DNA from: Amphibalanus amphitrite
Taxonomy: Eukaryota; Arthropoda; Thecostraca; Balanomorpha; Balanidae
Direction of reading: 5' to 3'
Assembly (NCBI RefSeq): GCF_019059575.1
Contig: NW_024882036.1
Coordinates: 1 to 64,000, forward strand
DNA: 64,000 nucleotides
Below, piece after piece: positions 3,245 to 63,879 of the stretch; within the stretch, counting starts at the first letter, position 1; every line of letters starts with the position of its first letter. Under the pieces are notes generated by a model. That model was given only the letters and a program-made list of their open reading frames with translations, was not told the DNA's origin and ran no database searches. Made by a program: the position numbers and the translations under genes.

Positions 3245-3395
3245 AAATTCGGATTCAAATTCGAGTAATGATTTCGCTCAAAATTGGCATACAGATAGCC
3301 CATGGCACGCTGAGTTCGAAAATGGTGACCTTTTTTTCCTAGGTCAAACCGTTTGACCTTGAGAGGTCAAAATACTGCGTACACTGTAGAATCTT
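3245..3395 (-). repeat. Non-satellite block inside left array, copy 1
   Basis: A ~150-bp block interrupts the satellite. It contains GGATTCAAATTCGAGTAATG, CATACAGATAGCCCATGGCA and an everted pair of half-sites, TGACCT-TGAG-AGGTCA. The same block recurs at ~4877-5015 in this array, in part at 7525-7583, and at the far end of the right array (16053-16185). The two left-array copies are 1633 bp apart and are followed by the same order of unit variants, so they mark a ~1.63 kb higher-order repeat. Confidence 0.9.
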
Positions 3396-4876: not shown

Positions 4877-5015
4877 AAAATTCGGATTCAAATTCGAGTA
4901 ATGATTTCGCTCAAAATTGGCATACAGATAGCCCATGGCACGCTGAGTTCGAAAATGGTGACCTTTTTTTCCTAGGTCAAACCGTTTGACCTTGAGAGGT
5001 CAAAATACTGCGTAC
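4877..5015 (-). repeat. Non-satellite block inside left array, copy 2
   Basis: Second copy of the block seen at 3245-3395, nearly identical, 1633 bp downstream. The flanking satellite units, including the unit with the short AAAATCGCCGTACCC junction, are repeated too, so the duplication covers the block and about ten satellite units together. Confidence 0.9.
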
Positions 5016-18208: not shown

Positions 18209-18230
18209 CACGCTTTTTATATCACTCGGT
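18209..18230 (+). promoter_or_regulatory. TATA-like site in left LTR
   Basis: A TTTTTATATC stretch sits at the start of a GC-rich segment about 1.0 kb into the LTR, with the identical site in the right LTR near 25763. The position is plausible for a U3 promoter. This rests on the motif alone. Confidence 0.25.
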
Positions 18231-19667: not shown

Positions 19668-19723
<56 letters not shown>

Positions 19724-19725
19724 GG

Positions 19726-19756
<31 letters not shown>

Positions 19757-19818
19757 GAGAGAGAGAAGGAAAGAGAGAAAGAGAGAGAGAGAGAGAGAGA
19801 GGGAGGTAGGGAAAGACA
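19668..19818. repeat. GA microsatellite in left LTR
   Basis: Long imperfect (GA)n tract with GG interruptions. It differs in length from its counterpart in the right LTR and accounts for the 35-bp length difference between the LTRs. The Arg-Glu open frames over it are artefacts of the dinucleotide repeat. Confidence 0.95.
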
Positions 19819-19961
19819 GACAGAGACAGAACAGGCTCACCACTGGCGTCTGCTTGTCATTAAAAGTCAGCTGTCAGGTAGCCTTGCACCGTCTATCCGA
19901 GGAATTCGGAGTGCTCCGAAAGTTTCGCAGTCCAACGCAGCCGGAAACCCAATTTCTCACA

Positions 19962-24740: not shown

Positions 24741-24869
24741 TGTGAATTTATAAGTAGTGTTTGGGATGGGGATAAGGATAAAGATGACTGGGAGAAGGAT
24801 GAGGATGTAGAGTGGGTCAAGGATGGGTGTGTGGAAGGATTCAGGCCCGCCTACTGGCTGTTGTGGTAG
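24534..24869 (+). CDS. Short ORF crossing the interior / right LTR junction
   Basis: A 111-codon frame begins 207 bp upstream of the right LTR and ends 129 bp inside it. The LTR part encodes an acidic, lysine- and tryptophan-containing tail (DGDKDKDDW..., ending WLLW). Two of the four base differences from the left LTR in this stretch are silent and two are Gly/Ser changes in this frame. I do not recognise a family. It may be a chance frame. Confidence 0.25.
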   Translation: MFMRVLHLASSITFTDGRAQTECDYSSEPETMTINKIINKVIKQAKASRGISRSLNRTDYDQIPDDSHQCEFISSVWDGDKDKDDWEKDEDVEWVKDGCVEGFRPAYWLLW

Positions 24870-27216: not shown

Positions 27217-27304
<88 letters not shown>

Positions 27305-27317
27305 GAGAGAGAAGGAA

Positions 27318-27390
<73 letters not shown>

Positions 27391-27545
27391 TAGGGAAAGA
27401 CAGACAGAGACAGAACAGGCTCACCACTGGCGTCTGCTTGTCATTAAAAGTCAGCTGTCAGGTAGCCTTGCACCGTCTATCCGAGGAATTCGGAGTGCTC
27501 CGAAAGTTTCGCAGTCCAACGCAGCCGGAAACCCAATTTCTCACA
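24741..27545 (+). repeat. Right long terminal repeat (2805 bp)
   Basis: Direct repeat partner of 17192-19961, with the same TGTGA...TCACA ends. It is followed immediately by CCAC, the target duplication, and then TAATAGGG-TTAA, the right end of the host element. The GA tract is longer than in the left copy. Confidence 0.85.
27218..27388. repeat. GA microsatellite in right LTR
   Basis: Imperfect (GA)n tract, the expanded counterpart of 19668-19818. Confidence 0.95.
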
Positions 27546-38728: not shown

Positions 38729-41700
38729 ATGGAACTCCTAGAAGAGCATCCACGATACAGAGAGCTGCTGTTGGCTTTGGATACCAATAATGCTTGGCAT
38801 GCTCTGGGCGAGATTGCTGATGAGTACAGCAGTCTGCTGTCACCAACAGACCTTGCCGTCGCGGCACACCAGCCCTCCCCATCTCGCTTCCTCCTGGAAC
38901 GGATCACCCTGTTGAATGGACCCCTGACAGTTCACGAGGCTTTCATGCTTCTGGAGTCACTGGATGGGGCAGCCTCTGCAGCCGCCGACCTGCTGCGGCC
39001 GCCCCAGCCGCTGCGTGTCCGGCCCCTCTCCGAGACCAACTCGGCCTGCGTGTGGGCGCCTATCGGCGGCCGGCTGGAGCTGCTCTGCCAGGCTGAGGCG
39101 TGGCCGCCGCCCAGCTTCCAGTGGCGGCGCGACGGCCGGCCGGTGCCGCCCGAGGCCGGCGGGGACCGGGCGCGGCTCTGTGTGCAGCCGTTCTCGGCCG
39201 CCGACGCCGGCCAGTACTGCTGCCAAGTGCTGGACGCGGCCGGCGGCGCCGTGTCGGCCGGCGCCGTGACGGTCGAGCCGCGCCAGGCGCCGCCGCGCCC
39301 GCTGGAGCGCCGGGTGACGGACGTGACGGGCGGCGAGCTGGGCCCGGACGGCTCGGTGTCGGCCAGCGGCGAGCGGCCGCTGCAGCTGCAGGTGCGCTGG
39401 GCCGGCTGGCCCGAGCCGCGGCTGCGCTGGCTGCGCGACCACCAGCCGGTGGACGGCGCCGACGGCGGCACGCTGACCCTACTGCCGGGGCCGGGAGCCA
39501 CCGGCGGCACCTACGTCTGCGTGGCCCAAAACGCCGTCGGGGAGGTGAGCGACCGGCGGGGGGGGGGGGGGGAGGGGGCGGGGCTGAGCGCCCGGCAGGG
39601 GGGGGGGTGAGCACCCGGCAGGGGGGGGTGAGCGCCCGTTGGGGGGGAGGTGAACGCCCGAGGGGGGATGAGCGGCCGGCAGGGGAAGTGAGCGCCCGGC
39701 GGGAGGGATTGAGCGCCCGAGGGGAGGGGGGGGGGGTGCGCCCGGCGAGGAAGAGGTCAGGGCAACATGCTCATTATTCAGCATTTCCTAAAACTGGCAA
39801 TAAGCATGCGGGGTTATCCTTGTCTGTTTGGGATATGAGAACCTCACCCACTGATACGTGTTTCAGGTTTTGTCTTACAGTCTGTCTTGCCGTATGTCTC
39901 CCCCGCAGGTTCACTCGGACCCGTTCCGTGTCTCTGTCTGTCTCTGTTCCTTGTCTCTGTCTGTCTCCGTTCCGTGTTTGACTCTATGTCTGTCTCCGTT
40001 CCCAGGTCCACTCGGACCCGTTCCATGTCTCTGTTCCATGTCTCTGTTCCGTGTCTCTGTCTGTCTCCGTTCCGTGTTTGACTCTATGTCTGTCTCCGTT
40101 CCCAGGTCCACTCGGACCCGTTCCATGTCTCTGTTCCATGTCTCTGTTCCGTGTCTCTGTCTGTCTCCGTTCCGTGTTTGACTCTATGTCTGTCTCCGTT
40201 CCCAGGTCCACTCGGACCCGTTCCATGTCTCTGTTCCATGTCTCTGTTCCGTGTCTCTGTCTGTCTCCGTTCCGTGTTTGACTCTATGTCTGTCTCCGTT
40301 CCCAGGTCCACTCGGACCCGTTCCATGTCTCTGTTCCATGTCTCTGTTCCGTGTCTCTGTCTGTCTCCGTTCCGTGTTTGACTCTATGTCTGTCTCCGTT
40401 CCCAGGTCAACTCGGACCCGTTCCGTGTCTCTGTCTGTCTCTGTTCCTTGTCTCTGTGTCTCCGTTCCGTGTCTGATTCTCTGTCCGTCTCCGCTCCCAG
40501 GTCCACTCGGACCCGTTCCGTGTGGAGTTCGACTCGCGCCCGGTGGTGATCGAGCACCCGCAGACGGCGCAGCGCTGCCATCCCATTGGCCGGCCGCTCA
40601 GACTGCGCTGCAAGGCCTTCTGCCGCAGACAGGTCAAGGTGAGGCCCTCTCCGGCCGGGTGGCGGGACTGGGGAATCGGTACGGGCTCACGGCCACGGCG
40701 GCGAGAGCGCGCTCCTGCCGGGCCGTGGGGTTCAGGAGCCGTGCTGTGTTATGTTGTGCCATGCTGTGCTGTAGCCTGTACTGTGTTGTACCATGCCGTG
40801 CTGTGCTGTGCTGTGCCGTTCTGACCCCGGGCCCGCCGTCGTCAGGTGGTGTGGCGCCACTCTGTGCAGGACGCCGACTCTGGCCGGGACGAGGTGGTAC
40901 CCTGCAGTCAGGTGATGACGGAGCCGCAGCCGGCCGCCGGTCTGGTCACCTCGGAGGTGCGGCTGACGCCCGCCGAGCGCGACGTGCGCCGCCACTGCGG
41001 CGTCACCTGCGAGCTCCTCGCCGAGGGGGACTTCGAGAACAGGTGGGACGCGGCTGAGCGGCGGGGGGGGGGGCGGATTCATCAGGGGTTTGTTTCTTGA
41101 GAAAACCTTCGGACATTGTCTGCGTCGTAATACATATGACGTGATAAGCTGACTTATTTTATAGCTGCATATTGCATATAAACAGCTTGTTTCCACTCAC
41201 TGCCGTTCTGAGCAGTTTGTCCGCTGTTTGACAGTTTCACCCAGAGCCTGCCGGCCCGGTTCAGAGTCGTGTACCCGGCGCACTCCAAAATGGCGCTTAT
41301 CATCGGAAACTCCAACTATCATCACCTGGAGAAACTCCAGGAGGTACGTACCGAAACCCGGGGAACCCCAGGAGGTACCGAAACCCGGGGGAACTGCTCA
41401 ATTATAAAGCCCTGGAGGAGATCTAAGAACATAGGAGGTGGTACCTAGGAGGTGCGTACCGCGTACCAGGACGCACCCCTACCGACCGACTAGCGGCCGT
41501 GGACGTTACTGAGAGCGGCCTGATCGAGCGGAGACGGCGGCGCCGAGTGCCGACCTCTGAGCGTCGCCCCCCTCCCCCACCCTCCCCAGGTGGGGCAGGA
41601 CGTGGCCGACTTTGAGGCGGCCATGCGCAGGCTCGGGTTCGGCACCCTGGTCGCCATGGACCTGACCACCGAGCGCTCGCGGCGCGCGGTGGAGTACTTT

Positions 41701-44181
41701 GCCCGCGTGGCGGCGCCGGACGCCTACCTGGCCGTGCTGGTGGCCGGACACGGGTTCACCTACCAGCGGCGTGACTACCTGGCGCCCGTGGACCACCCGG
41801 CGCTGGACAGCGGCACCGGCGTGCACCCCAGCAGGTACGGGACAGCGGTACAGGGGTGCACCCCAGCAGGCACTCCCTCGGGAGCAGCGGTGCCGCTCCA
41901 AGGGAGCAGCCCGCATGAGATAAAGGTGCCTGTCCAGCCCGGAGTGGGGGTTGCGGCGTGGAGGAGAAGGATTTCAGTATCCTGAGGATGTAAACGACGG
42001 AACGGAGCAGTTACTATCGATAGATATCAGCTTTAGCTCACTTCTGCGCCGACAGAATATGTCTCTGAAGTTAGTTCCCTGACCGCTAACAGATGTCTCT
42101 GACGTTAGTTTCCTACCCCGCTAACAGGTGTCTCTGACGTTAGTTCGCCATCCCTCCGACAGATGTCTCTGACGTTAGTTCGCCAGCCCTCCGACAGGTG
42201 TCTCTGACGTTAGTTCGCCATCCCTCCGACAGGTGTCTCTCGATGCTGGACGACATCGAGGACCGCCTGCAGCGCACGTCGCCCAAGCAGCTGCTCATCT
42301 GCGGCGACATGTGTCGCACCATGAACGACGCGTGCGCCACGGCCGAGGCGGCGGCGGCGGCGGGCGCTCCAGGCGCGCCGGCCGGCCAGCCGCCCCGCTC
42401 GGCCGCCAACGTGGTCCGCCTGTTCTCCACACAGGTACGGCCGGACGGACGGAACGCGACCAACGCTTCGGACCAGAGACATTGACAGACTCAGACCAGA
42501 AACGGGAGGTAGAACGGACTCTGACCTGACGAACAGAGCGGACCATAGACGGGGATGAATGGAGTGAATCAGCCCAGCTCACCCACTGACCCGCTCCCCT
42601 CCCCCCCCCTACTCCAGATGGGCCATGAGGCGATGGACGACAGCAAGTTCATGCGCTGCCTGCTGGCCAACATTGAGCGCGACATCCCCGTCCAGGAGAT
42701 GGGCGTACAGACGCTGCGCGCGCTGGGCTCCATCACTGATGGCGGGCCGGCCGCCGACCAGGTCAGGCGCTGACCCAGCTTACATAACTGCTTCTGAGGT
42801 CAGGTATTTTATAGAGTATCTGTTACCTCAGGGAACTGAGGCCAGACTCTGCAGCTAGAGCGAGCGTCCAGTTCGTCCCTTTTAGTGTAGCGGTACACAG
42901 CTGTCAGCCTGTCTTTCCCTCGCTCTTCTGTCTGTGTCCTTTTGCCGCTTCAAGCGTTCCCGTAGCTGCTCTAACGCAGCCTTTGATACACTGGCCCCGC
43001 GAACCCTTCCTGACCCCGTTTTAACCCCGTATACCCTCCCTCCCATGTCCCAGATTCAGCAGCACCCCATCATGGAGTTGTCTATGGCGGAGCACCGCAG
43101 TCTGCAGGACCCGGCCGACCACCGCACGGCGCTGGACGAACACTGCGAGCTCAACACGACCCTGGAGGTACGGCCGACACCCAGCGGACAGCCGCCGGGC
43201 CGCGCCGAGCTCCCAGCGGGGGTCTCCGCGACCGTAACGTTCGCGGTATCGTTTCTACTGTACTACCCTCTTTTCTGACCCATCTGCACTACCCGTGATT
43301 TCCGTAACAACGTGACCTCTCACTGACCTTTCTGCTGGAGGTCTCTCCATTTACCCCTGTGACCTTTATAGTGCATCCATTGAGACCTGCTGACCCCTGT
43401 ATCGCTTCTCCTGATCGTGGATAACCTGTGGTATCTAAGCTCGTGACCCCTGATGACCTCAGCTACCCCTCCGTGACCCCTGGTGACCCCTCTGACCTCT
43501 GTACCCCTCCCCCTGCCCCCCGGCAGAAGCTGAACCTGCGGCTGGGCATCCGGTGCTCCAACTACGTGTGGGACAGCGAGCCGGAGCTGCTGCTCACCCT
43601 GCGACTCGACCCGTGCACGCCGTACTACGTCTGGAAGGTGCTGCCCCACCCGGACGGCCACCGCGGCCTGGTGAGTCAGAGGCACCGGCGCCGGGCGAGT
43701 CAGAGTCAAACCGGCAGAGTGAGTCACTCACCCCGTCAGGGTGAGTCAGAGTCACCCCGGTCTGATGAGTCCGTCACCGCGGCCGGGTGAGTCAACTGTC
43801 GGGTTTATAGATTTATGGATAGGGGCACGGGACCGATCGTTTTAGCAGCAATGCCAGCAGTTTATTCCATTCTGTAGCTGGTCGGGACACGTCCAGCACT
43901 GCTCAGTGACGCGCCCTCCTCTGCCCTCTCAGTCGTTTGCGCTCGAGAACAACTGCCGGTCGGGCGTCAGCTCGTGGCGTGTGACGGGTCTGCCGGCGTC
44001 CGGCGGCCGCGTCCGGCTGCAAACCATCATCGGCATCGGCTCTGCGGACCGGCGCGACCAGCCGGCCGGGTTCTTCCACCACCCGCCGCTGCTGCTGCAG
44101 CTGCACCCGTACCTGGGACTGGTCGCCGAGCCGGGCCCCGGCCTGCCGCCCGACACCAAGGTCTCCAACGCTGACCGGTAG
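38677..44181 (+). CDS. MALT1: MALT1-type paracaspase, ten exons, complete
   Basis: Exons, all with GT-AG and matching phase: 38677-39544 (start codon 38729), 40501-40638, 40846-41042, 41235-41343, 41590-41834, 42233-42434, 42618-42761, 43054-43167, 43527-43670 and 43933-44181 (stop TAG). The product is 785 residues (human MALT1 is 824). Order: death domain (~1-88), two Ig-like domains (~95-275), a further Ig-like segment (~275-384), caspase-like domain (~385-600) and a C-terminal Ig-like domain (~620-785). The caspase-like part starts MALIIGNSNYHH. His474 lies in AGHG and Cys529 in GDMCR, the family's catalytic dyad. The family cleaves after arginine and works with BCL10/CARD proteins upstream of NF-kB. 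The death domain and both first Ig domains lie in a single 816-bp coding exon. I see no PxExx TRAF6-type motif near the short C-terminus. Confidence 0.93.
39545..39750 (+). repeat. Donor-derived minisatellite in MALT1 intron 1
   Basis: The intron begins GTGAGCGACCGGCGGGG. The following ~200 bp are imperfect ~20-bp repeats of GGTGAGCGCCCGGCAGGGG with long G-runs. Several copies keep GGTGAGC, a good donor, so the true junction is followed by decoys. Confidence 0.8.
39905..40500 (+). repeat. 100-bp acceptor-containing minisatellite in MALT1 intron 1
   Basis: Four near-perfect 100-bp units plus diverged units at both ends. Each contains a pyrimidine-rich TCTCCGTTCCCAG followed by GTCCACTCGGACCCGTTCC, a copy of the real acceptor at 40500 plus the first 19 bases of exon 2. 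Beyond that the units diverge into TCTCTGTTCCATG-type repeats. Long open frames over this stretch are low-complexity artefacts. Confidence 0.93.
42045..42232 (+). repeat. ~35-bp acceptor-containing minisatellite before MALT1 exon 6
   Basis: About five copies of CCGACAG-GTGTCTCTGACG followed by TTAGTTCGCCATCCCT. The last copy runs into the real exon as GTGTCTCTCGATGCTGG. Using any upstream copy would give the in-frame TGA in GTGTCTCTGACG, so those copies would be non-productive acceptors. Confidence 0.9.
43671..43790 (+). repeat. Donor-derived repeats at the start of MALT1 intron 9
   Basis: The donor at 43671 reads GTGAGTCAGAGGC. GTGAGTCA or GCGAGTCAGAGTC recurs about five more times over the next 120 bp, at roughly 30-bp spacing, with CCGGC- or CCCGG-type spacers. 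Confidence 0.7.
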
Positions 44182-46386
44182 TTCCCCCGACACACCCACA
44201 CACGAGCGGTGGCCGCTGCCGCTGTGAGGTGTCTCCGAACCCAGCCCAGAGAACTGCCGGTCACAGAGACTGACCCGCTGTGCGGTCTGCACACTCGACA
44301 GCCGTCGTTCGTTTTCAGTACGGCACGGTGTGAGACACCCATCTGTCAGCGTGCCGTACGCGCGGTGTCCGCCCTCGCAGCGCGGTGCTTGGGCTGTCCG
44401 TTTTACAAACTGTGATGTTGATTGTGGTAACTGATAATTGTGCTTTATGCAGACGGCGCCAGGGTAAAGCGTCCCGCGTACCGCGTACTACGGGTGTCTC
44501 CTGGCTGCCGGCTGGAGGTCTAGAGGTAGTGGATTTGCCAAGATTGTTCACAGGCGTAGCTTGTAGGATTGGGAACGAGCTGATGTTGAGCTCAGCAATT
44601 TACGCGTGCTGCTTTATTTAGCTTTGCTTTACGGTGATATCGCTTTATGGCTTGTTATGATAGACAAGATGAACGTTTGCGCTGCGTGGCCCACCCACTG
44701 CAGTCGCTGTGGTCGCCAGGAGGGGGGAGGGGGTGATACCGTCGCTGTTGTCGCCAAGGAGGGGGGGGGGGGTGATACAGTCGCTGCTGTCGCCAGGGGA
44801 GGAGTCGATGTGGTCGCTGCGATCGCTGTCTACAGTTGATCTCGCTGTGTCGCCACCGCTGTATGATGGCGTTAGCGCCCGGTAGCTGGGGCTGTGTGTG
44901 ATATGTTTCAGCGCCCATCCGCTTAAAAGTCCAGTCCCCCCCGTCAGTCCGCTCCAGTCCAGTCCGGCGCAGTCCTGAGGGACCGACGGATCAGACTGCC
45001 GTGCCAAATTACCCTGCTGGTCGGACTGACCCCACTCCCCATACCCTGTCCCACCAACCGTTCCCCGTCCCATTCTCACTCCGCCCCATCATACCATCCA
45101 TAACCCCTTCGTCCAGCCCGTCCCACCGCCTTATCGTCCCATTCTCGTCCCATCGTGCCGTCCTCTCCTCTCACGGAGTGGCGCACCACACACCAGTCAC
45201 CGGACGCTGATTGCTGGGGTTCGGGTCTGATATGTGTATTGATCGAACACAAAGGGATCACTAGGGCTGAAACCCCATCATCGGCCAACGTATAACAGGT
45301 GATACAGACTGTCATATTGTGTGATACCGCGGGACAGGATTGTAATACTATGATTGTTACCATCAGGCGTTTGTTACCACCATTTGTTACCGACGTTGTG
45401 TCTTTGGGGAAATTGTACGGGCTAGCCCCTATCGCTGGCGGCTCGCGCTGGCCAGCCGCTGAGTTAGGACGGCGGGGCAACTCGGCCTCACAGCAGAGTG
45501 TGTCCGCCAGTCTGCTAATTCGGCCTCACAGCAGAGCGTGTCCGCCAGTCTGCTAACTCGGCCTCACAGCAGAGCGTGTCCGCCAGTCTGCTAACTCGGC
45601 CTCACAGCAGTGTGTCGGCCAGTCCGCTCCTGGGTGCCGCCCGAGGGCTCAGCAATGATAGATATGTGCCTCAACGCGGGGCGGGTGTGTACTAATGACA
45701 CGGCACATCTAACGGCGGACCAGCTGCCGCCGGCCCCACCTCACACTCATTAGCTCTGGTTGGATCTGATCACAGACAGGTGACTGGACCGGCGGGCGTG
45801 CACAGATCACACGGCAATCACTACTGGGTAACACACACACGCTCACACACGGCGCGCGGTGGGTACAAACAAACGGCGCAGACCCGGGCAGCGCTCCACA
45901 TGGCTGTGATATGAGACAGGGCGGGGCTATACTCTGCGGGACCGCAGTAAGGGACTGGGTAGGTTGCGCCGCCCAGCCAGGGACAGCTAGCTCACCGCCT
46001 CGTTCGGCGACAGTTCGGAGTCGCCCCAGTCAGCGGTGTCGCACCCCGTCCCCGCCCGGTCCGCCGGCCGGAGCAGAGTCAGCAGAGTCGGCCGGACACG
46101 GCTGCTCGTCAGCGGCGTCCTCCGGGCCGGAGTCGCCGTCACCGCCGGCCGCGCCTGGGGCAGGGGGCGGCGTCAGGAGCACTGAGACACGGGGAGTACC
46201 TCCAGACTGGAGCTTACGATAATTAGAGCGCTGAGACACAACATCTATAGAACACAGCATCTTAAGAACAAAACATCTTTAGAACACAGTTTCTTTGAAA
46301 CACAACTGACAAGTGAACAGAGGCCCGACTTTTCTGAAGAGTACAGGGAGGTTGGTCGGCGACTGATGGTCTCCACTACGGGGTTA
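44182..46386. other. Intergenic region between convergent MALT1 and PGAP1
   Basis: The 2.2 kb between the two stop codons contain no ORF I would call a gene. They contain a GTCGCTGTYGTCGCCA repeat with G-runs (~44690-44830) and a 38-bp minisatellite (45479-45635). Positions 46020-46170 on the minus strand read an acidic frame (GGDGDSGPEDAADEQ...) behind a CCCCAG acceptor and could be an alternative last exon of PGAP1. A minus-strand AATAAA lies near 44612-44617. Confidence 0.55.
45479..45635. repeat. 38-bp minisatellite
   Basis: Four tandem copies of a 38-bp unit containing CTCGGCCTCACAGCAGAGCG and TGTCCGCCAGTCTGCT. The unit has CAG but is not adjacent to an exon I can identify. Confidence 0.9.
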
Positions 46387-49300
46387 TCATCCTATTCCTA
46401 AGCAAGTAACAATCGGTTGTGGCATGCTCAGGACCCTAAAGCCCCGTCTCCACTGGCCCCGACTCCCACCGCTCAGCCGCTCCTGACCCCACTGACCGTC
46501 CTGCTCCTGCAGCTCTGCCTCCTGCTCCTGAGTCTGCTCTCCCTCCGGCGCCTCCTGCTCTGCCTCCGGCGCCTCCTGCTCTGCCCCGGTGTCCGGCTCG
46601 GCCGGTATCTCTCTGACGGGCGCGGTCAGCTGGTGGACGGCCACAGCCAGGACGGCGGCGGCCGCCAGCCAGAAGGCGCGGTACACGTTCAGCAGACAGA
46701 ACAGGTAGACGGCCACGGCGGCCGTGTGCACCACAGCGGCCACAGCGCGGTAACCGGCCCTGTGAACGTACAGACCACGGTCAGACCACAGACCACAGCG
46801 GCCACAGCGCGGTAACCGGCTCTGTAAATATGCAGACCACAGTCAGACCACAGACCACAGTCTCACAGTCCACAGACCACATACTACATCACAACAGAGC
46901 AGAGACTACAGAACACAGACCAGGGTCAGAGACCAGAGACAAGACCCAGAGATCATAGAGGCCACAGACCACGGCGTCAGGTTGGACCACAGTGGCCACA
47001 ACGCTGTGTAACCAGCACTGTAAACAGACCATAGACTGCAGTACAGTAATCATTACATGGCAACAGATCGGCCAGAAATTGCACACTACACAGTAAGTTA
47101 ACAGATCAAAATTAGTGATCAATGATCAGCTTCCTATCAGCCCTCCCCCGTTTCACCCCAGGTGGAGCTATCTTCCCCCCCCCCCCTCCTCCATCCTCTA
47201 CTCACAGGTCGAGCCGGGGCGCTGCGTCTCGCCAGAGGACGGCCCCGCAGTTACAGAGGACCAGCGCCGCCACCAGACTGGGGTCCTCGGGCAGCTGGGT
47301 GCTCTCACTGCAGAACGGGGGTCAGGTCAGGTCACAGGGAAGTGCTGCGTCACCACCAAAGATACAGTCCGACACCGAACGCACATCATCAGACCTAGAT
47401 CGTCACTCCTCCCCCTCTATGTAATTGCAATCCGCGTGAAATCGACTGGCACCAGATGTAATCTCCCCTGAGCAGTTCAGCAAACTCAGTACACTGACCA
47501 GCCTGGCCCAGTGCCGCCCGCCCCGCGCCGTGGCGTTCCCGTGTTCACAGCAGAGCCCGTGAGTGGCACACCGGCAGACGCACATCCGTCCATCACCTGC
47601 GTATGACACCGGTGGATGCCCCTGGCACTGTCCATCGGTCCTTCACTGACCTACGCAGTGCGCGTCCTGGACCAGACGAGCAGGCAGTGTCCCTCCCCCG
47701 CATACACAGCCCGCCGGCCGGTTACTCTACTGACCTGCGCGTCCTGGACCAGACGAGCAGGCAGTATCCCCCTCCCCCGCATACACAGTCCGACGGCTGG
47801 CTACGCTACTGACCTGCGCGTCCTGGACCAGACGAGCAGGCAGGGCAGGTGGAACAGGGTGACCCAGAGCCAGACCAGAGCCAGCGTCACCGACGTGTAC
47901 GCCTTGAGCGCCGCCAGCCGGCCGCCGCCCGATAGAACCTCCTCGTAACTCTGGAACACCTGTCCGTAACAGACACAACACAGCACTGTCACCGCCGGGT
48001 AACACCTATCGTAACTCTGGAACACCTGTCCGTAACAGACACACAGCACTGTCACCGCCGGGTAACACCTATCGTAACTCTGGAACACCTGTCCGTAACA
48101 GACACAACACAGCACTGTCACCGCCGGGTAACACCTATCGTAACTCTGGAACACCTGTCCGTAACAGACACAACACAGCACTGTCACCGCCGGGTAACAC
48201 CTATCGTAACTCTGGAACACCTGTCCGTAACAGACACAACACAGCACTGTCACCGCCGGGTAACACCTATCGTAACTGGAACATCTGTCACCACAGACAC
48301 AGCTAGGTTACGAAAATCAGTACCTGGCACCGACAATGACCTGAGACCCCCTGGCCTGGGTCTCCTGTGACCCCCTGTGCCCTGAGCTGACCTTGACGCA
48401 GGTGACGATCAGTCCGAGTCCGAGGGCGATCTCTCCGCACGAGGAGAGCGCCAGAGCGGAGAGAGCCACCGAGAGGATGACGGGGAACCGGGCGGCGCCG
48501 GCCACGGCCACCTCGGCCACCGCCTCGGAGCCGCCCACCGCGCGAGATACCAGTCTGGCAGGGAAGAAACGCAGAAAAAAAGTCAGTATACCAGCTTCAA
48601 AAACAACCAGAGAGTGTAAAAGGAAAGTGTAAAGGAACTCTAAAGCGTCCGTCTGAGCGAAGAGACACAGTTTAACAGCTAGAATGACCAGACGGGACTC
48701 TGAATCAGCGACACCGGTTTGTTAAATAACTGAAATTTTGGTGACACCGGTCACAGGGTCGGAACACACCGTCAGGAACACAAGCGTCCCAGACACCAGG
48801 CACAGAGACAGTCATCTGCCCGCTACGGGCTGCGGCGCTCCGACTACCATTCCGGAGCGCCGGGTGGGCAGCCACCTCAAACCTGACCACTACGCGTACC
48901 ATCCCCTTCCCACCGCACGAACTGAGTGCTGCACGATACAACGGTACAAAACAGGACAGGGAGGTGTTAAAATTGGGAAGACGCCTGCACGCCAAACGTA
49001 ACTGCGATGCAAAAATATGACACGAGGTAATGAAGGGTAGTCATGGACAGCTGTAGAAAACAAAACTGGTTATTTTGTAACTAGGGAGACACAACGTTAG
49101 CAACTCCACAAATAAACCACAGCACACGTTAGTAACTCAGGAATTGAGTCACAGCACGCGTAACGCTAAATACCCAGGGAGACAAACCACAGCACACGTC
49201 AGTTAGTGCTTGATCAGCGTCACAGCACACGTTATCAATAGCCAGGCGGTCCGTTCCCGCCCCATACAGTCCACTGAGCGGGCTCCCCGGCCCAGCGCTG

Positions 49301-55300: not shown

Positions 55301-58300
55301 CGTCAGCTGACGGTCGCTGTGGCGACTGACGTCACAGTCCACCGTCACCTGACGGAGGGGGACAGGGGAGGGCTGCCGTCAGCTGACGTCACAGTCCACC
55401 GTCACCTGACGGAGGGGGGGGGGGACAGGGGGGCTGCCGTCAGCTGGACGTCACAGTCCACCGTCACCTGACGGAGGGGGGGGGGGGGGCTGCCGTCAGC
55501 TGTCGTCACAGTCTACCGTTACCTGACGGAGGGGGATGACATCAGAACCAGTACAGTGGGTCAGAGCAGGGTTGGATTAAAGCCGGCTTAAATTGAATTT
55601 ATGCCAGCCAGTGGTTTAAACCGGCTTAAACCGGCTTAAATTAATAAAAACCACCTTCAGTCAAAACATCTACTATAACTTATCTTGTGGGTCAGTGTAC
55701 TCGTTGGTGACTGTGCAGAGTGCAGGAAGTCAATACCGTGTCATTTTGTATTATGTCAACATGTTGGCATGTGATTATGTTGACAATCTGGTCAGTAGCC
55801 ACTAGGTAACTAAGCTAAAAAGCAAAGTAGGTATAAGGCATAAGCACATTCTATTCTTAACATTCGGTTTACCAGTTGAAAGTCTCACTTTATTTTACAT
55901 GTAAAATGTAACTATTCTGACCAATCGTCTGGGGACTGGGCCAGTAACTTAAATATTTTTCATGGTATCACCCTTCCTGTGATTTTTTTAATTGCACAGG
56001 AAATAATTGTAACAACTCATCATTTATAAATCTTCTGGAATGTTCCTATGGTTTTTTCAGGTAGTGCATGTTGTTTTCTTAGTATAGCAGTGTCCCTAAC
56101 TAATCACACTTATTATTGTTTTTACGTGAACTTTGGAGCCTATAATGGTTGCCGTGCTGTCAATTCCTTTGTTTAGTGTCACTGACTGCTTAAGCAATAG
56201 ACAGTTCCCTAGTAAATAGGCAATGTTCTGTATGATAGTTTTTAGGCCTTACCATTCACTGATCCTTGCACCATGCATTTGGCATTAGGTCATGTTTGCT
56301 ACAGCTTCTCATAAAATTGAAATTGGTTTCTTTATTGAACCTGTCTCCAAGACTTTTCATTCCATGAACCACCCATGTAAACAACTAGTTGTGTAAAACA
56401 CTGCAAATCAAAATAAAGATTTGATACAGGGTGATACAGATCAATAATGAATGACATCAAGTTAACCCCCAGGGGAAAAAAACATTACAAGTTAGCATGT
56501 ATAATTGAAAGGTGTGTATAGAAAATGTGAAGAGAAGAAGCAGTTTAACCCAAGTGATGTTACGACAAGTTAACGGAAGTGGCATTTATTATGTTGGTAC
56601 ATACTGGTTTAAACCGGGGTGGCTTAAATTAGTTTATGCCAGCCGGTTTAATCCATGGATTAAACCGGTTTAAACCGGCTGCTGGCATAAATTTGCCAAC
56701 CCTGGGTCAGAGGACAATGACCGTCAGTACAGCGGGTTGGAAGACGACAAACAGGAGCTCAGGAGACTGACCACCAGAACTCTGCCGCCAGTACAGAGGG
56801 TCAGGAGATAACTGACCAGAAGACCGGCCAGGAGCTCAGGAGAGTCAGTGCAGCAGATAAGCATCAATCGATAGCTGGCGCCTAGCAGTACTTCAAAACC
56901 AGCGGAGTTACGATGACATAAAAATTAACGACGCATAATGTTAAAGTTGACCGTTTTGATTATGACTATTATAACCAGGCTCACCTTACTGTTTCACTTC
57001 GTACAGGATATCCGACCAGGACCGAGCAGACTCAGAGTCCCTGTGTGCCGACTCCGCCGCCTGGCGTACCGTGACGTCACGCTGACGTCACCCGGACCGG
57101 ACCAGGGGAGTAGGATCGGCGGCCAGAGGACGGGGACCGGACGGGAGTCGGGTGGAGCGGTCCGGACCACCAACGGCACAGCAGCCGCTGGAAGAGTCGA
57201 CCACAGAGACAGGACGCCGGTTATTGCAACAGATATCAGGGTGGGGTGATAGAAAGGACTGGGTTATTGGGGCAATCAATAGTACAGGTTTTATGGTTCG
57301 TTTGTAGCACATCTAATAAAAAGGGGCCCAGACAGACAGTCCTACGGAAAGAAATCAGGAGAGGAGGGAAAGGGGGCTGCACTGCTGAGCTCGGCTGAGC
57401 GAGGTATGGACCTTGCCACCCCATGACTGCCCATGGTATAGTCTCCCCCTCCCAAGAACCTGGTGACCCCCCACTGACCTGATGACCCCCCACTGACCTG
57501 ATGACCCCCCACTGACCTGATGACCCCCCACTGACCTGATGACCCCCACTGACCCACTGACCTGCTCTGCGGCGGGCCGCACGATGACCACCACGTGAGT
57601 GTAGCCCCGCTCGTGGAGCCGCTCCAGGTCCAGACTGACGGAGCGACGGCGGCCCTGGAGGGAAGGCACCTGCTCCCCCAGGTGGCTCAGGTTGTCACCC
57701 TCCTCACTGACATCAGAGCACAGGGAATGGTGTCAGGACAGTGGCACTGATACATACTACAGGGGACCCGTGTCAGCGACAGTGACACATACAGGGCGCG
57801 CCCTAAATATGGGTAAAACGTAAGCACAGACACTGATATCAAACCAGACGCCGGTGTCAGGTGGGTGGTCTCTCAGTCTCTAAAGTGATTCCCTCCCTTT
57901 CCCTCTCTCCCTCCCTCCCTAAGAACTCACCACATCCTGACCCCCTTGTCCACCTTGCTGGCCACACAGGCCACCAGCCAGTCGCGGCTGGGCAGGTTCA
58001 CCGTGCTGATTGTGGCGCGCTGGTATAGCGGGTTGTTCATCAGGCCGATCATCAGGTACGTGGGACGGCCAGACTCGCCGCGCGCTGCCGGGAGGGCACG
58101 GGGCGGGGGTCACGGTCAGAATAAAACAGAGGAGACGCACTTCTGTACACTGAGCATAGGTAGTATGGATAGCAAGGCACCAGCGTAAGGTCTATCTAAC
58201 TTAAACAGTAAACAGCACTTCAACTAAAAACACAATATTGATTTGCAGAAGTTGAGCAGAGAAAATACAAAAAATGTACAATGAAGCCTCGCACAAACTG

Positions 58301-61300
58301 GAAACAATCGGCAAGATTGTTGTACTCAACACACCGACCTCCGACCAAATACAAAAGTGAATAAGTTACGGGTGAAGTAAATGTTAGTCACACGCATGAT
58401 GGTCTGCGGTTTGCGTCCAGTTGCAATGCTCCGGTGAACAAAACTGGAGTCAAAAGATTATTAGTAGTTACTCATACCTATCTAAACCAAATTCACACAG
58501 CAAAGGAACAAACATACGTGGCTCCGTCAGTTAAAGCACTGCGGAACGGGTTTAACACGGATTAAAGATAAGCACCGTATACTAAAGAAATGCTACGGCC
58601 AACAAGAAAGCCGCCTAGCGGTGTCAGTGCGGGCTGCTGTTCAACTGCAGGTGTTAGCGGTCACACACAGATGTCGCCACCTGCGCCGTGGTTCTCGGGC
58701 CGCGCGGTAGGTGGCGCCAGCGGCACTCCAGTGCGGCGGGAGGGCTCTGAGCTGGCGGCCGACCATCGGCCGGTCGGCGGGGGAGGCCACCGGTCTCTGC
58801 TGGACCCGGGCCGGTCGCCGCCGGTCCCGGGCCGGTCCCCGCCGGACCCGGGCCGGTCCCCGCCGGACCCGGGCCGGTCCCCGCCGGACCAGGACCGGTC
58901 CCCGCCGGACCAGGGCTGGTCTCTGCTGGACCCGGACCGGTCCCCGCCGGACCAGGACCGCGGGCGGCGGCCCTCCGGTCTCCAGGGTCGAGTCGGAGTC
59001 GGAGTCGGAGTCGGAGTCGGAGTCGGAGTCGGCGGGCGGGTTGGAGACGGCAGAGACGGCGGTAGGACAGCCTCTTCACAGTCCATACAGAACCACGTGT
59101 GATCGGGGTGTGCGGTCGTGATAAGACGGTAACAACACAGCGTGGAGGCGTCGCATTGAAACGAGACAAAAGACGAGAAGAGTAGAAGACTAACGAGTTT
59201 ATCAACGCACCGTAGAGTGAGTTCACACACACCTCACCAGTCGATACACAGATGCAATGTTTATGTCAGATCGACGAATACAGTGAGTTTTAACCCTGAA
59301 AATGAGTGCTTTGCGATGAGTGCAAATATGATCAAGTGTCAGCCTAAGTCCCGGGTCCGTACCTGCGGTGTAGCTCCACTGTCGGAGGGCGTATTGTTTC
59401 CACTCGCCGGCCGGGGGGTCTACTGTCTGTCTGTCTGTCTGCCCCCCCCCCCCTCCCCCCTGGGTCTTTACCTGCAGTGTGGCTCCACTGTCGGAGGGCG
59501 TACTGTTTCCACTCGCCGGCCGGGTCCAGCGGGACAGTGGCCGGGTGGAAGGCGTTCCGGTAGTGTTTTCCGTGGGTACGCTGCCGGAGCACAGACACAG
59601 TGTGCTCTCACTCAGCTCTGTATGTTCACTCGGTATCGATAACACTGTCACTCACAGTCATCGCAGAGACGGAGACAGACAGACAAAAACAGACGGAAGC
59701 AGACGACAGGCAGGCACAGCTCTGGCCGCAGACAGTGAAATGTTCACAGCCCTACTGGCCTACCTAGCTCCACTGCACCCCACCGTTCCGGGGCACTGGG
59801 CCAGCCGCCATTCCACCAACACAGCCGGAGCGGTGTCCCACAGAAGTGACCCCCTCACCTGCATAAAGTGGTGTCGGAGCACCACCGCCTCACCTGCACA
59901 AAGTGGTGCCGGAGGACTGCGCGGGCGGCGGCCGGGTCGGTGGTGATCTGGCGGGTGTCGGCGCTCACCAGGTCGAACAGGGCGCGCGCCATCACCAGCA
60001 CCAGCTGGCGGCACCAGACGATGCACTGGTGGTCGGCCGACGCCCACACGCCCGGAACGGAGACCGTCTGGAAGGGACGGCGGTACTGGGGTCAGAGGAG
60101 CAGCGGGCAAAATAAGCAGCGAGCACACTTCTGAAACAATGATGTGAGGGTACGTACTAAGGTTCGATCGCGACTAAAACGACGTCAGTGGCACATACTA
60201 TAACGTGGCTACTGGGATTGCACGGCCCTCTTTCATGGCGCTCTGCTAGCCGCTACTAGCGCGTTTTGGGGGCAGATGACGGCATAGATTGTGGTCGTAC
60301 GTATGATGTCATGTGACTTGGGCCAAACAACGGCTCTTCATTAGTTCTTTTATAGTGTCAACTTCAACTACCAAGCTGATGACGCCACTCAGTATTAAAG
60401 CGTCCGAGTAGGGATAAATACGCGAAGGATCATTGACCTTTTCCTCGAACAAGTAAAAGCAAAGCCAAAAGTTATATTTAATACGGTGAGCTTTCGTCTA
60501 CAAGCCTTCGTCAAACCGACAAAATGACAAGATACAAAATTCATGTACACATGCAACACTCTTGAACTGAATATTTAAGCTGCGGTTGTCGACACTCGTG
60601 TCTATTTCTGGAACAATCTTATCACTCCGCTAAAACACAAGTACACACAATCATATACACAAACATGTGATAAAGATATATGCACTAAACATTTTACAAA
60701 TGATCTGAAGCCGGATTTCCTTACTTACTCTGAATTTTGCATAACAAAACTCCTCATCAACGTATGGCAGAGACAAAAACCATCCTTGCTCTTCTCACCT
60801 ATGCAGTCAGCAGGTTTCTCTTTTTTGCCCTCCACGCCTGACCTCTTCTTAACCCGCGCCCCACTGGGGTCTGCGTATAACACGCCCTACTGGGGCGGGG
60901 GGGGGGGGGCTCTTCATAGCCCCCCTCCTAACTCCGAAACTACTGGGCCGATCGTCAAAATTCAAACGGCGTCTGATAGCCTCGGAAAAACTGTCGAACG
61001 AATCCTAATTTCATTGGCCTCGAGGTCACCGATGACGTCACAGGTCAGGTCAAAGTAAAAATTGACTTAGTGGCTCCAGTGGCGCAGTTGGTAAGGCGTC
61101 GGTTCTGTGGTCGGGAGGACCCGGGTTCGATCCCCGGTGCCGCCCGGCTTCCGGACTGGCGTCCCCAACTGTGTCACTGGGGGGTGGGGTGGGCTCCCGC
61201 CTTGCACCGTAGCCCTGAGGAGGAGCAGGAGCCCTCCCATAAATGGGAAAACATATCCCGTGTGGAGGACGAGGAATAAATAAATAAATAAATAAATAAA

Positions 61301-63879
61301 TAAAATTATTAGCATTTTGGCTTGTTCACCTTTTGGGCTCTGGCCGCCGTCTTACGTGTCAGATCAGGCTCAATTTTTGTTTACACACTCGTGAACAGAT
61401 GCTTTAAATACCCTGAGGGTACCAAACTTGTACTATGATTTTCAGGTCAGGGTCAGGTCATCACAGGTCACGGAAATATTATATCGTACGTCGGTCACGT
61501 GATAAATGTTTTATGGTCCATTTAGGCCACAGATTTCGAATTTGATGTCGTCTAAGTCATTCGAGGTCATTTTGAGTCGAGTTCAGCTTAGGTCAGGTCA
61601 CTTTCAGGTCAAAAAAGGTCAAATTTTGAAGTTAAGATTTTTGAACAAAAAAGGTGTCTATTAGATGCAGTTTGAGCTCAGGAACACGATAGTGCTATTT
61701 ATATTGATGTACGATGTCAAATACGTACTGAAAATTGATTGGAAAAATTAATAATTGAGAATTTTTTGCAATAATGCATATAACTTGGCCATTTTTGAAA
61801 ATATTTAGCTAAAACTTGCTAGAGTAAGTCATAAGCATGCGTTCTATCACATATATTCCGTTTTTTTCGAAAAGTCAAAAAAAAAGAAAAAAATATGAAA
61901 AAAAAATTTGAATTTTACTTTATAAAACTTTCAAAATTTTGAAAATCCAAGATAGCAGTTTGATAGCGAAGTCTATTCTGAGTCATTTCATGCAAAGAAA
62001 TTGGATCTAGCTTAAACACTGAGCTCTTGGGAGCGATTGCCGTGGTTCAATGTTTTGCGTCGAAATCGGCCGAACATGACGTCACTCTGACGTCATTTCC
62101 GGCCGACCTATGGTAGCTACGAAGTTCATATTTTGACAGAAGGTGTCAAATTGATGCAGCCGAAGGTACTGAAAGTTTGGCGTCGATACGTCAAGCGGTT
62201 CGGAAGTTATTGCAGAAAAACGGGAGGGGGGCTATGAATAGCCCCCCCCCCCCCCCCCCAGTGGGGCGCGAGTTGAAGCCTTTGGGAGAATTCTCTTTGG
62301 ATACCCGCTATCAACTAGAAGCCCCCAGAGCTATCCTATACTTCTCTCTTTCCCTGTTTGAAGAATTCCTGATCGCACGGCTAAACTGATTCCTGGCAAT
62401 GTTGTGCTTGGTCGCTGTTGGGTGGGCCGATTTGTAATGGAGGACAAATCCCTGAGTTCGTGGGATTAATGAAAAATTCAGTTTCAATCTTCGCCAAATT
62501 GTCGTCGCTGGTAACAGTAAGCAGCGTTTCTAAAAATGGCACCCCAGATTGTCCCCCGGAGTGTTCGAGGGTAAAACATAGGGTCGGATGCAGGGAGTTC
62601 AAATTGGCCACAAACTCTATGAGTGACTGCTGAGTGCTGACCATGCGTCCAAATCCCCGAGGAAAAGGTCAATGATCCCTCACCTATTCATACTCGCTGT
62701 TTTCCTCGCAAAAACACCTAACTCGATTAATATTTTAGAGCGTCCCAGTTTGTTAGTATCCCCATGGGAACCGAATGCACCACAAGACGTGTGCTAACAG
62801 CGTGCGGTGAAACAGGATCTCTGGAATGTGGACCAAGGCTTAGCCGGTCCCGTAGCTCAGTTGGTTAGAGCGTTGGACTCCGCGTGGTGAGAGCACGCGT
62901 TCCCGGTTATGACAGTCCGGGTACGAAGCGCGACGGGCGCTCGACATTTATGGGCCTCCTGACAGGTATGGTTGCGGTTGGTGGCAGGCCGTAGCCAGGC
63001 GAAGTCAGCGAGGGGACCGGCCGTGCGCGGCTTTGTGCGCACGTTAAAACTTTGGACACTAAATTCTGCCATAGAATCGGAATTGCGCGATCGGAGGGTA
63101 GAGGGCAGGGTCATCGCAACAAGCTACGCTTAGCGGTGGCTCTGTCCTTGTGAATCCTTCCCATCAAAAGGTTCGGACTAAATTTATAAAAAAAGGCTGT
63201 GACGTTATTGGCATTTCACTCAGAATGCTACTGTGATGTCGGAGGTCGTAATTAACTCACTGTCGCAGGTCGTAACTCACTCACGGCTGTGACATCAGGG
63301 CCTCGTTTCATAAAGCGAGTCCGTAACTTACGCCGGTTTTTTGTCTTGAATTGCAAGTGCATGTGAAGTGATGCCGATAGTTTGAATCGTTGAATTTATT
63401 TATCTTGCAAGCAAGAACAGAAGAGAGTAGGGGAAATAAATTTAGCGCTTGACATGCACTTGCAATACAAGACCAAAAACCGGCGTCAGCTACGCACTCG
63501 CTTTATGAAACGAGGCCCTGAAGTCGTAATTCACGCAAGGCTGTGATGTCCGAGCTCGTAATTCGCTCAATGTCGTAGGACGCAACTCACTCACTGTCGG
63601 CGGTCGTAACTCACTCACCACGGCTGTGATGTGGTCGTAACTCACTCACCACGGCTGTGATGTCGGCGGTCGTAGCACACTCACCACGGCTGTGATGTGG
63701 TCATAACACACTCACCACGGCTGTGATGTCGGAGCTGGGGTGCTGCGTCTGGTGCGGTCGGATCTGGACGTCTCTGTCTCCACCGGACAGCGAGACCACG
63801 GTCACAGCCGAGAGCGTGGTGTTGCGCCGCGCTGCCCAGAACGACTCCACCCAGCCGTAGTAGCTCACCATCGCCAGAT
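46387..63879 (-). CDS. PGAP1: PGAP1-like GPI inositol-deacylase, fifteen exons, N-terminus off the window
   Basis: Exons in transcription order, all phase-compatible: 63879-63716, 60067-59894, 59580-59472, 58084-57931, 57706-57562, 55348-55199, 54357-54230, 53629-53510, 53126-52914, 52480-52295, 49516-49391, 48554-48392, 47959-47814, 47307-47206 and 46759-46387 (stop). They encode ~816 residues. PGAP1 removes the inositol-linked acyl chain from GPI-anchored proteins in the ER membrane. Diagnostic segments include a VSLSGGDRDVQIR stretch, then VPGVWASADHQCIVWCRQL followed by RALFDLVSADTRQITTDP, and HERGYTHVVVIVRP. The middle exons are the lumenal domain. From 53126 onward hydrophobic segments alternate with short loops (multi-pass membrane half). 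The lipase GxSxG motif should lie upstream, outside the window. Exon 49516-49391 adds an Asp/Gly-rich loop and has a weak donor (GTGCTG). The C-terminus has a Glu/Gln-rich repeat tail not expected in the family. Confidence 0.92.
46760..47020 (-). repeat. Acceptor/exon-start duplications upstream of PGAP1 last exon
   Basis: On the minus strand the real acceptor TACGTTCACAG followed by GGCCGGTTACCGCGCTGTGG (46759) is preceded by a copy at ~46775-46835 (ATATTTACAG, AGCCGGTTACCGCGCTGTGG). A more diverged copy lies at ~46985-47030 (TGTTTACAG, TGCTGGTTACACAGCG). The intervening DNA is GGTCTGTGGTCTGA-type repeat. Confidence 0.85.
47640..47813 (-). repeat. Exon-end/donor duplications after PGAP1 exon 47959-47814
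   Basis: On the minus strand the exon end CTGGTCCAGGACGCGCAG and donor GTCAGTAG at 47814 are followed by a second copy ~90 bp further (again GCGCAG-GTCAGTAG). A third copy has the donor changed (GCGCAC). The spacers are near-identical GTGTATGCGGGGGAGGG-type sequence. Confidence 0.9.
47960..48290 (-). repeat. 66-bp in-frame acceptor minisatellite upstream of PGAP1 exon 47959-47814
   Basis: Four full units plus a partial one. On the minus strand each unit reads TGTTACGGACAG then GTGTTCCAGAGTTACGA, the same acceptor and exon start as the real exon. The unit is 66 bp (one copy 63 bp), both multiples of three, and is open in the exon's own frame for all copies. Skipping to an upstream acceptor would insert 21-22 residues per unit (VFQSYDRCYPAV plus a Cys-rich part) without a frameshift. 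Confidence 0.92.
50475..50903. mobile_element. Foldback MITE with ~170-bp inverted arms
   Basis: The left end GGTGCTGGAAATGAGGCCGC and the right end, read on the other strand, GGTGCTGAAAATGAGGCCGC continue as near-perfect inverted copies for roughly 170 bp. Both arms reach GAGATGCAAAGTT and the ATAGTCACACGA region, leaving a ~90-bp centre. Copy A of the host element lacks it at the same place, which shows the insertion. I cannot define the target duplication. Confidence 0.8.
51539..51678. mobile_element. ~140-bp MITE with 17-bp inverted ends
   Basis: GGGTGGTGTTTCACCGG at 51539 and its reverse complement CCGGTGAAACACCACCC at 51662-51678. Copy A of the host element reads straight through (AACAGGATACCACC near 37098), so this is an insertion. 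The family is unassigned. Confidence 0.7.
52727..52913 (-). repeat. 21-bp donor-containing minisatellite after PGAP1 exon 53126-52914
   Basis: About eight units of 21 bp. On the minus strand each is GTCAGTACCGGTCACCGCTG plus G, starting with GTCAGT just like the true donor (CTCGG-GTCAGTACC). The unit encodes an open seven-residue repeat (STGHRWV), so intron retention would be translated for some distance before a stop. Confidence 0.92.
53690..53722 (-). repeat. Acceptor duplication upstream of PGAP1 exon 53629-53510
   Basis: On the minus strand ATATATCTTGCAG-CGGCACC at ~53700-53722 repeats ATATATTTGGCAG-CGGTACT of the real acceptor 91 bp downstream, including the start of the exon in diverged form (CCAGTGTG further on). 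Confidence 0.7.
54365..54910 (-). repeat. Intronic minisatellite: acceptor copies plus AGGTCA repeats
   Basis: Upstream of PGAP1 exon 54357-54230, the acceptor and exon start (minus: CTGTCCCCAG-TCTCTGACGGAG) recur in diverged form near 54695-54735 and 54880-54905. Between them run many ~10-20-bp repeats of CAGAGGTCATCAGAGGTCA type, with at least fifteen AGGTCA or AGGTCAC half-sites on the plus strand. Confidence 0.8.
55349..55545 (-). repeat. ~60-bp acceptor minisatellite upstream of PGAP1 exon 55348-55199
   Basis: On the minus strand the acceptor CCCCCTCCGTCAG and exon start GTGACGGTGGACTGTGACG occur three more times upstream of the real one, with C-run spacers of varying length. The true copy is identified because only it continues into the homologous coding sequence (DCDVSRHSDRQL...). 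Confidence 0.88.
55567..56704. mobile_element. hAT-like non-autonomous element with 8-bp target duplication
   Basis: The ends are CAGGGTTGG and CCAACCCTG, with GGTCAGAG duplicated at 55559-55566 and 56705-56712. Subterminal TTAAACCGGCTTAAA and GCCAGCCGGTTTAA motifs repeat at both ends. The ~1 kb interior is AT-rich and non-coding. It sits in a PGAP1 intron. Confidence 0.9.
57465..57561 (-). repeat. ~20-bp donor minisatellite after PGAP1 exon 57706-57562
   Basis: On the minus strand the donor is GAGCAG-GTCAGTGGGTCAGTGG, followed by about four copies of GGGGGGTCATCAGGTCAGTG. Each copy regenerates CAG-GTCAGTG, an equally good donor. Confidence 0.9.
58790..59030. repeat. GC-rich minisatellite and GGAGTC hexamer tract in PGAP1 intron
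   Basis: 58790-58965 is a run of ~21-bp repeats of GGACCCGGGCCGGTCCCCGC. 58988-59028 is (GGAGTC)n. Both give long Pro/Gly or Ser/Glu frames by composition only. I find no exon here. Confidence 0.85.
59356..59471 (-). repeat. Exon-end/donor duplication after PGAP1 exon 59580-59472
   Basis: On the minus strand GGCGAGTGGAAACAGTACGC through CACACTGCAG-GTAAAGACC (donor at 59472) is repeated ~110 bp downstream as GGCGAGTGGAAACAATACGC through CACCGCAG-GTACGGACC. The duplicated piece covers about 50 bp of coding sequence and carries its own good donor. Confidence 0.88.
59846..59893 (-). repeat. Exon-end/donor duplication after PGAP1 exon 60067-59894
   Basis: On the minus strand CACCACTTTGTGCAG-GTGAGGCGG (donor at 59894) is followed by CACCACTTTATGCAG-GTGAGGGGG about 35 bp later. 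Both are intact GT donors. Confidence 0.85.
60849..62276 (+). mobile_element. TTAA-type non-autonomous element copy 3
   Basis: TTAA (60849-60852) is followed by CCCGCGCCCCACTGGGG. The right end reads CCCCAGTGGGGCGCGAG then TTGA, a one-base-degenerate target copy. Subterminal hairpins pair a G-run and a C-run around GCTCTTCATAGC (left) and GCTATGAATAGC (right, ~62224-62258). The interior is non-coding with AGGTCA clusters at 61,033-61,050, 61,443-61,475 and 61,563-61,620. A SINE is inserted at 61071-61304. Confidence 0.75.
61071..61304 (+). mobile_element. tRNA-derived SINE with (AAAT)n tail
   Basis: The head is a well-preserved tRNA-like sequence: A box TGGCGCAGTTGG and B box GGGTTCGATCCCC, ending GTGCCGCC. 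It is followed by a ~120-bp unrelated body and a tail of six or seven AAAT/ATAA repeats (61275-61304). Internal RNA polymerase III boxes plus a simple tail define a SINE. The left flank AAAATTGACTTAG and right flank AAAATTATTAGC may be a degraded target duplication. Confidence 0.85.
62846..63196 (+). mobile_element. tRNA-derived SINE, copy 2 (plus strand)
   Basis: The head GGTCCCGTAGCTCAGTTGG (A-box region) is followed by GTTGGACTCCGCGTGGTGAG, then a degraded B box (CCGGGTACGAAGC), a shared body and an A-run at 63187-63194. It matches 36139-36484 in reverse complement over its whole length. It is not a functional tRNA gene, because the B box is mutated and the spacing is wrong. Confidence 0.8.
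63230..63715 (-). repeat. ~34-bp donor minisatellite after PGAP1 exon 63879-63716
   Basis: On the minus strand the exon end and donor ACATCACAGCCGTG-GTGAGTG (63716) is repeated in the intron at ~63612-63635, ~63644-63668 and ~63678-63702. More diverged copies lie at ~63530-63600 and 63230-63295. The unit is roughly TCACAGCCGTGGTGAGTGAG plus TTACGACC. Most copies keep GTGAGT or GTGTGC. Confidence 0.88.
63296..63520. mobile_element. MITE with ~50-bp inverted ends
   Basis: CAGGGCCTCGTTTCATAAAG at the left and the reverse complement CTTTATGAAACGAGGCCCTG at the right, with inverted homology continuing through CCGGTTTTT and TTGCAAGTGCATGT. It is inserted in the donor minisatellite of the PGAP1 intron. 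I cannot define a target duplication because the flanks are themselves repetitive. Confidence 0.8.

Follow-up and report, generated by a model that had tools for sequence, protein, structure and literature searches.

Why should the borders between exons and introns of two neighbouring genes be found again, as tandem copies, inside the adjoining introns? This question is raised by the window analysed here, i.e. a stretch of 64,000 nucleotides (contig NW_024882036.1) from the acorn barnacle Amphibalanus amphitrite. The first gene, a MALT1-like gene with Ig domains and a caspase-like domain, lies on the forward strand (38729..44181) and has 10 coding exons and 9 introns. Its spliced model (38729-44177 plus the last codon and the stop) shows 100% identity over the full length to P0001, the product of NCBI LOC122393568 of A. 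amphitrite, and the caspase-like part of the protein also matches solved MALT1 chains. The second gene, PGAP1 (GPI inositol-deacylase), lies on the reverse strand (46030..63879), with 15 coding exons in the window and the N-terminus outside it, and its model is exactly residues 214-993 of P0009, a GPI inositol-deacylase-like protein of A. amphitrite. Since both spliced models are identical to NCBI proteins, the splice sites used in our tests agree with the NCBI annotation. Many donors of the two genes read AG|GT. One stretch, 49393-49517, is a PGAP1 exon (SDDDDDDSDGGAGGG...) in another A. amphitrite protein, P0010, which continues beyond it; P0009 skips this exon, which was handled here as intron, its borders being outside the set of 46 junctions.

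In our main test, each border sequence was aligned, allowing gaps, against the remainder of its own intron for 23 introns with 46 junctions, a junction-spanning copy being a match with at least 4 exonic and at least 4 intronic bases and the main cut-off a score of 16. As a control, each border was aligned to the 22 other introns (n=1012), whereby the similarity due to the splice-site consensus is kept. At a score of at least 16, the own intron gave such a copy for 16 of the 46 junctions as against 0/1012 in the cross-intron controls, and with the cut-off at 12 the figures were 16/46 and 1/1012. This confirmed that the splice-junction repeats in the two genes are real. Six of the passing junctions are in the MALT1-like gene (donors 1, 4, 5 and 9; acceptors 1 and 5) and ten in PGAP1 (donors 2, 3, 4, 7 and 13; acceptors 6, 7, 8, 12 and 14), so that both border types are represented, by 9 donors and 7 acceptors. 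The gapped test was made the main one because an ungapped lag scan loses copies with small indels: in the latter, 14/47 junctions reached a score of 16, compared with 16.4% of interior intron positions, and 10/47 reached 20, compared with 14.8%. The acceptor of the incomplete first PGAP1 intron (63879), covered by the ungapped test only, gave no copy there. A coding repeat at 46479-46585, which in the scan without gaps touches donor 46497, was rejected at a gapped score of 11.5.

An earlier note on this DNA had listed 16 repeated junctions, and 14 of these pass at a score of at least 16, namely donors 39544, 41343 and 43670 in the MALT1-like gene and 63716, 59894, 59472 and 47814 in PGAP1, together with acceptors 40500/40501 and 42232/42233 in the former and 55348, 54357, 53629, 47959 and 46759 in the latter. 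The remaining two, donors 57562 and 52914, fail, as the array there begins at or beside the donor GT and shares too few exonic bases; donors 41834 and 55199 pass and were absent from that list. The further statement that every unit spans the junction goes too far, for 9 of 24 intronic arrays cross none by the gapped-test criterion, among them those beside donors 52914 and 57562 and the interior ones at 58789-58960 and 40738-40823. Its claim that a usable GT or AG survives in most copies is borne out, with 35/39 retaining the signal.

What do the repeats look like? In the MALT1-like gene, where all of them are on the forward strand, the end of exon 1 (39544) carries a donor-type array with a G-rich unit of ~21 bp (39539..39731; SW score 21), and the start of exon 2 (40501) an acceptor-type array with a 100-bp unit, 6.3 copies and 23 exonic bases (39906..40523), which consists of five copies and one more diverged, with AG kept in 6/6. 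Donor-type copies at the end of exon 4 (41343; 41333..41460; SW 20) place decoy donors at +31 and +108, and the donor-type duplication at the end of exon 5 (41834; 41805..41873; lag 35 bp; SW 21) takes in ~27-30 exonic bases and only 4 intronic ones, with GC replacing GT in the copy. An acceptor-type array of 5.2 copies of a 35-bp unit with 8 exonic bases precedes exon 6 (42233; 42059..42240), and a donor-type array with a 24/46-bp unit follows exon 9 (43670; 43659..43794; SW 18.5).

In PGAP1, on the reverse strand, donor-type repeats are found at 63716 (an array at 63231..63736 with 24/31/66-bp units and 17 exonic bases; SW 50), 59894 (a duplication at 59849..59917, lag 35, 24 exonic bases; SW 24), 59472 (a duplication at 59350..59524, lag 109, 53 exonic bases; SW 38), 55199 (a duplication at 55148..55221, lag 43, 23 exonic bases; SW 16) and 47814 (an array at 47659..47843 with a 79-bp unit and 30 exonic bases; SW 57.5). 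Those of acceptor type comprise an array at 55348 (55326..55536; 55-57-bp unit, 3.7 copies; SW 48), copies at 54357 with a lag of 364 and others (54324..54907; SW 59), which surround a nested 10-bp CAGAGGTCAC array, a degenerate duplication at 53629 (53596..53720; lag 76; SW 16, with an ungapped score of 13.5, below threshold) and an array at 46759 (46713..47007; 62-bp unit; SW 46). The last acceptor-type array, at 47959 (47943..48289), has 5.3 copies of a 66-bp unit with 17 exonic bases; four copies are near-identical, one of them 63 bp long, and the four nearest are in frame without a stop. Left uncounted were the 21-bp intron array beside donor 52914 (52724..52913), with too few exonic bases, and the 19-bp array beside donor 57562 (57458..57561), which fails the gapped test. 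Over the 16 junctions, the exonic share of the unit ranges from ~6 to 53 bases, and the copies are 64 to 98% identical to their border.

Arrays of this kind are known. Namely, 'mirages' have been described in amphioxus, in Adh3 and the globins BflGb6 and BflGb9 (PMC3087553) and in troponin C and PGBD5 (PMC3902484), as tandem duplications across exon-intron borders, at either donor or acceptor, with units of ~10-160 bp, AG/GT signals in many copies and a copy number that varies between haplotypes (PMC3087553, PMC3902484). The barnacle arrays match them: three structural features of the lancelet cases recur here, i.e. a unit made of exon bases, splice site and intron bases (at the 16 junctions), an occurrence at donors as well as acceptors, and the retention of splice signals. 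The kind is therefore known and the lineage is new: here the host is an arthropod, 16/46 junctions of two adjacent genes carry the arrays, whose excess is quantified, and they are known from DNA and proteins. Among the matches listed from CC-licensed PubMed Central, by titles and starts of abstracts, there was no case of a mirage in a barnacle or other arthropod; the mirage literature found concerns lancelets only, and the dense barnacle set suggests a wider phenomenon.

It is probable, in our judgement, that the arrays are minisatellites of the mirage type that came about by border duplication and amplification and that persist through exon-proximal splicing and tolerance. According to this scheme, a short tandem duplication, mostly of ~20-110 bp, would arise across an exon-intron border, and some such duplications would then be amplified as ordinary minisatellites. 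The true exon end would be the outermost copy, with the additional copies sitting in the intron, and splicing would stay with the exon-proximal copy, most simply via exon definition, where the sites nearest to each other across the exon pair. The protein would remain unchanged owing to this exon-proximal splicing, and the repeats would for that reason be tolerated, comparable duplications within exons being removed by selection.

Would one expect as many junction-spanning arrays if duplications simply fell at random along the gene? In the gapped point test, 34.8% of the junctions (16/46) had a copy, compared with ~13% of 804 interior intron points, and 7.3 hits would be expected if junctions behaved like the interior of their own intron; in exon interiors the figure was 3/158, in line with a purging of exonic duplications. 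Interior points are autocorrelated, and whole arrays were therefore tested as well. Here, 15 of 24 intronic arrays cross a junction, whereas 2.1 would be expected under random placement, a null that is based on just two genes and may not capture effects of local composition, and in 0/200000 simulations were there as many crossings. The same holds for introns below 1000 bp (12/15 arrays, 2.25 expected) and below 600 bp (8/11, 1.9 expected). The 53629 array lies under the ungapped threshold and was thus left out of this count; if it is added by hand along with the coding repeat at 46479, 16/26 cross versus 2.5 expected. This supports, within the window and for its two genes, the suggestion of the earlier note that a recurring process acts at splice sites. 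With about one third of the exon-intron borders repeated, our results suggest that splice borders continue to gain short duplications and to tolerate them.

The best-surviving alternative dispenses with any process at the border: duplications would arise at random along the gene, exonic ones would be purged, and intronic and junction-spanning ones would survive equally. Such a plain neutral sieve fits the nine arrays that lie inside introns, the modest excess that is all the ungapped point test gives, and the biology of barnacles such as Balanus improvisus, which are repeat-rich and highly heterozygous (PMC8270832). It runs, however, against the number of crossings just given, for which the rate at junctions would have to be ~10-20 times higher. 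The simulated detection advantage of exon-anchored copies, 1.3-1.5 fold, is too small and leaves the junction excess unexplained, and with an assumed junction bias P is ~0.35-0.38 at 20-fold and 0.03-0.06 at ten-fold, chance being plausible only at the former. We consider this alternative unlikely.

If mirage-type minisatellites are indeed tolerated at these borders, how is the correct splice site found? Scored with a small matrix derived from the 30 remaining junctions, 15 of the 35 decoys that keep their GT or AG equal or exceed the authentic site (9 have exactly its sequence), and these are spread over 9/16 junctions, so that at those nine site strength alone is not decisive. Nevertheless, as read from annotation and homologues, the outermost, exon-proximal copy is the one used in the annotated NCBI proteins. 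In particular, at none of the 10 PGAP1 mirage junctions does P0011 or P0012 (spiny lobster) have an insertion of the size of a unit; their alignments show gaps of 1-2 residues near two of the 10 borders, and P0012 has extra residues ~ten positions beyond the 47959 border. The contig of P0011, at 3987 bases, is too short for such introns, and presumably is a transcript of a relative. For introns 1 and 4, the MALT1-like protein P0002 aligns to the borders without a gap; for introns 5 and 9, it has gaps of 1-2 residues close by. In amphioxus, the duplicated splice sites of Adh and troponin C are reported to yield no aberrant mRNAs (PMC3902484). Exon definition is reported to pick the sites closest across the exon and, for short introns, the closest across the intron are taken (PMC9225289). 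If it were the only cause of tolerance, mirages should favour long introns. By raw length they do, with a median of 506 versus 317 for introns without mirages (one-sided P 0.014) and mirages in 0/4 introns below 240 bp. With the repeats subtracted, by which raw length is confounded, the difference is gone (306 versus 252.5, P 0.32), and 4/13 host introns are then below 200 bp. For this reason, exon definition as the cause of tolerance is something that we infer, as we do the near neutrality of the repeats and an elevated rate of duplication at exon borders.

One could also imagine that selection favours the repeats, as reserve splice sites or as reiterated signals by which splicing is enhanced or regulated. 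The preservation of GT or AG in so many copies would agree with this, as would the PGAP1 array at 47959, in frame and open across four copies. That said, use of the 35 decoys is predicted to shift the frame in 24 cases and to introduce an in-frame stop in 7, i.e. 31/35 would do one or the other, and the 4 open ones are all in the 66-bp array at 47959. Moreover, decoy distances show no frame preference (11/13/11), and the acceptor array implied by P0010 (see below) is absent from the window's version of the gene. Selection for the repeats thus seems to us very improbable. Around the array at 47959, positions 47804-48307 form one open frame (168 aa) containing it, so that its inner acceptors would add steps of ~22 residues to PGAP1.

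Returning to the mirage reading, two protein versions differ in their copies at one junction. P0010, which is encoded on a different contig, differs from P0009 at 9/493 residues before exon 10 and at 3/112 after the exon-10 start, and could be either another allele or a paralogue of recent origin. At the protein level, the exon-10 start is present in six copies in P0010 and one in P0009; three of the P0010 copies are preceded by what looks like the translated end of intron 9 and two by a shorter link. The matching acceptor in the window has no array (score 7.5). To judge from the protein, the P0010 copies seem to have been taken for coding sequence, which is a warning to annotators.

Do the copies create introns, as the earlier note had considered by analogy with AGGT duplication? 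Under the Rogers model, the two ends of a newly gained intron should be related in sequence. When the donor region of each intron was compared with its own acceptor region, the mean score was 7.50, much the same as for mismatched pairs (7.38); a score of at least 12 was reached by 0/23 own pairs and 3/506 mismatched pairs, and the analogy is therefore unsupported. It is true that AG|GT is common at the donors, that intron gain by tandem genomic duplication with AGGT-like sequence is likewise a matter of tandem duplication involving such sequence (PMC3443670), and that mirages were proposed as a route of intron gain in amphioxus globins (PMC3087553). However, the repeated unit here is an exon-intron border within one intron, not an exon segment that comes to bound an intron. 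That these introns were born when an exon segment containing AGGT was duplicated in tandem is thus highly improbable, although the kinship test applies to recent events and the traces of old ones may have been lost by now. The effect of the copies is to lengthen introns already present, not to found new ones. In Cryptococcus, repeat expansion also alters gene structure within a population, but there whole introns are multiplied (PMC2395259), whereas in the barnacle it is one intron border only. Finally, an artefact of long-read assembly or merged haplotypes has next to no probability: even though the DNA is from one assembly only and an A. amphitrite draft was made from a pool of two heterozygous individuals (PMC8270832), copies with 64-98% identity to their border are not what merging errors would produce, and a second annotated protein version, P0010, also has such an array.

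Could mirage-type duplication be a general property of barnacle genomes? Tentatively, and with more doubt than belief, we put forward that barnacle exon-intron borders are a general hotspot of short tandem duplication, ~ten-fold over intron interiors and independent of lancelets. For the related barnacle Balanus improvisus, extreme nucleotide diversity and an abundance of repeats are reported, and A. amphitrite is reported to be highly heterozygous (PMC8270832); the word 'tandem' is absent from the text of that source. If the hotspot were real, borders in highly polymorphic animals would constantly yield spare splice sites, hidden by exon definition, and so keep permanently in store the material for new isoforms and protein insertions, the in-frame open array at 47943-48289 being an example. 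The mechanism of mirages has been called unclear (PMC3087553), and the density of the barnacle set makes the question of their origin countable, the quantity on offer being the frequency with which tandem arrays cross splice borders relative to chance.

The rest of the window holds repeats of other kinds. No further genes were recognised in 16000-38700, where open frames of at least 110 aa were looked through, and a tRNA scan (ARAGORN) found no tRNA, being negative also at 61073-61146 and 62852-62915, which by eye are tRNA-like and may be tRNA-derived short elements. Among the matches listed are 152-bp satellite arrays in opposite orientations at 1-6770 and 7588-16052, each unit with ~5 AGGTCA hexamers; similar hexamers are seen by eye in an intron array at 54729-54858 and in intron 2 at 61030-61610. 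Lastly, 17188-19961 and 24737-27545 form a direct duplication of ~2.8 kb with 98.5% identity.
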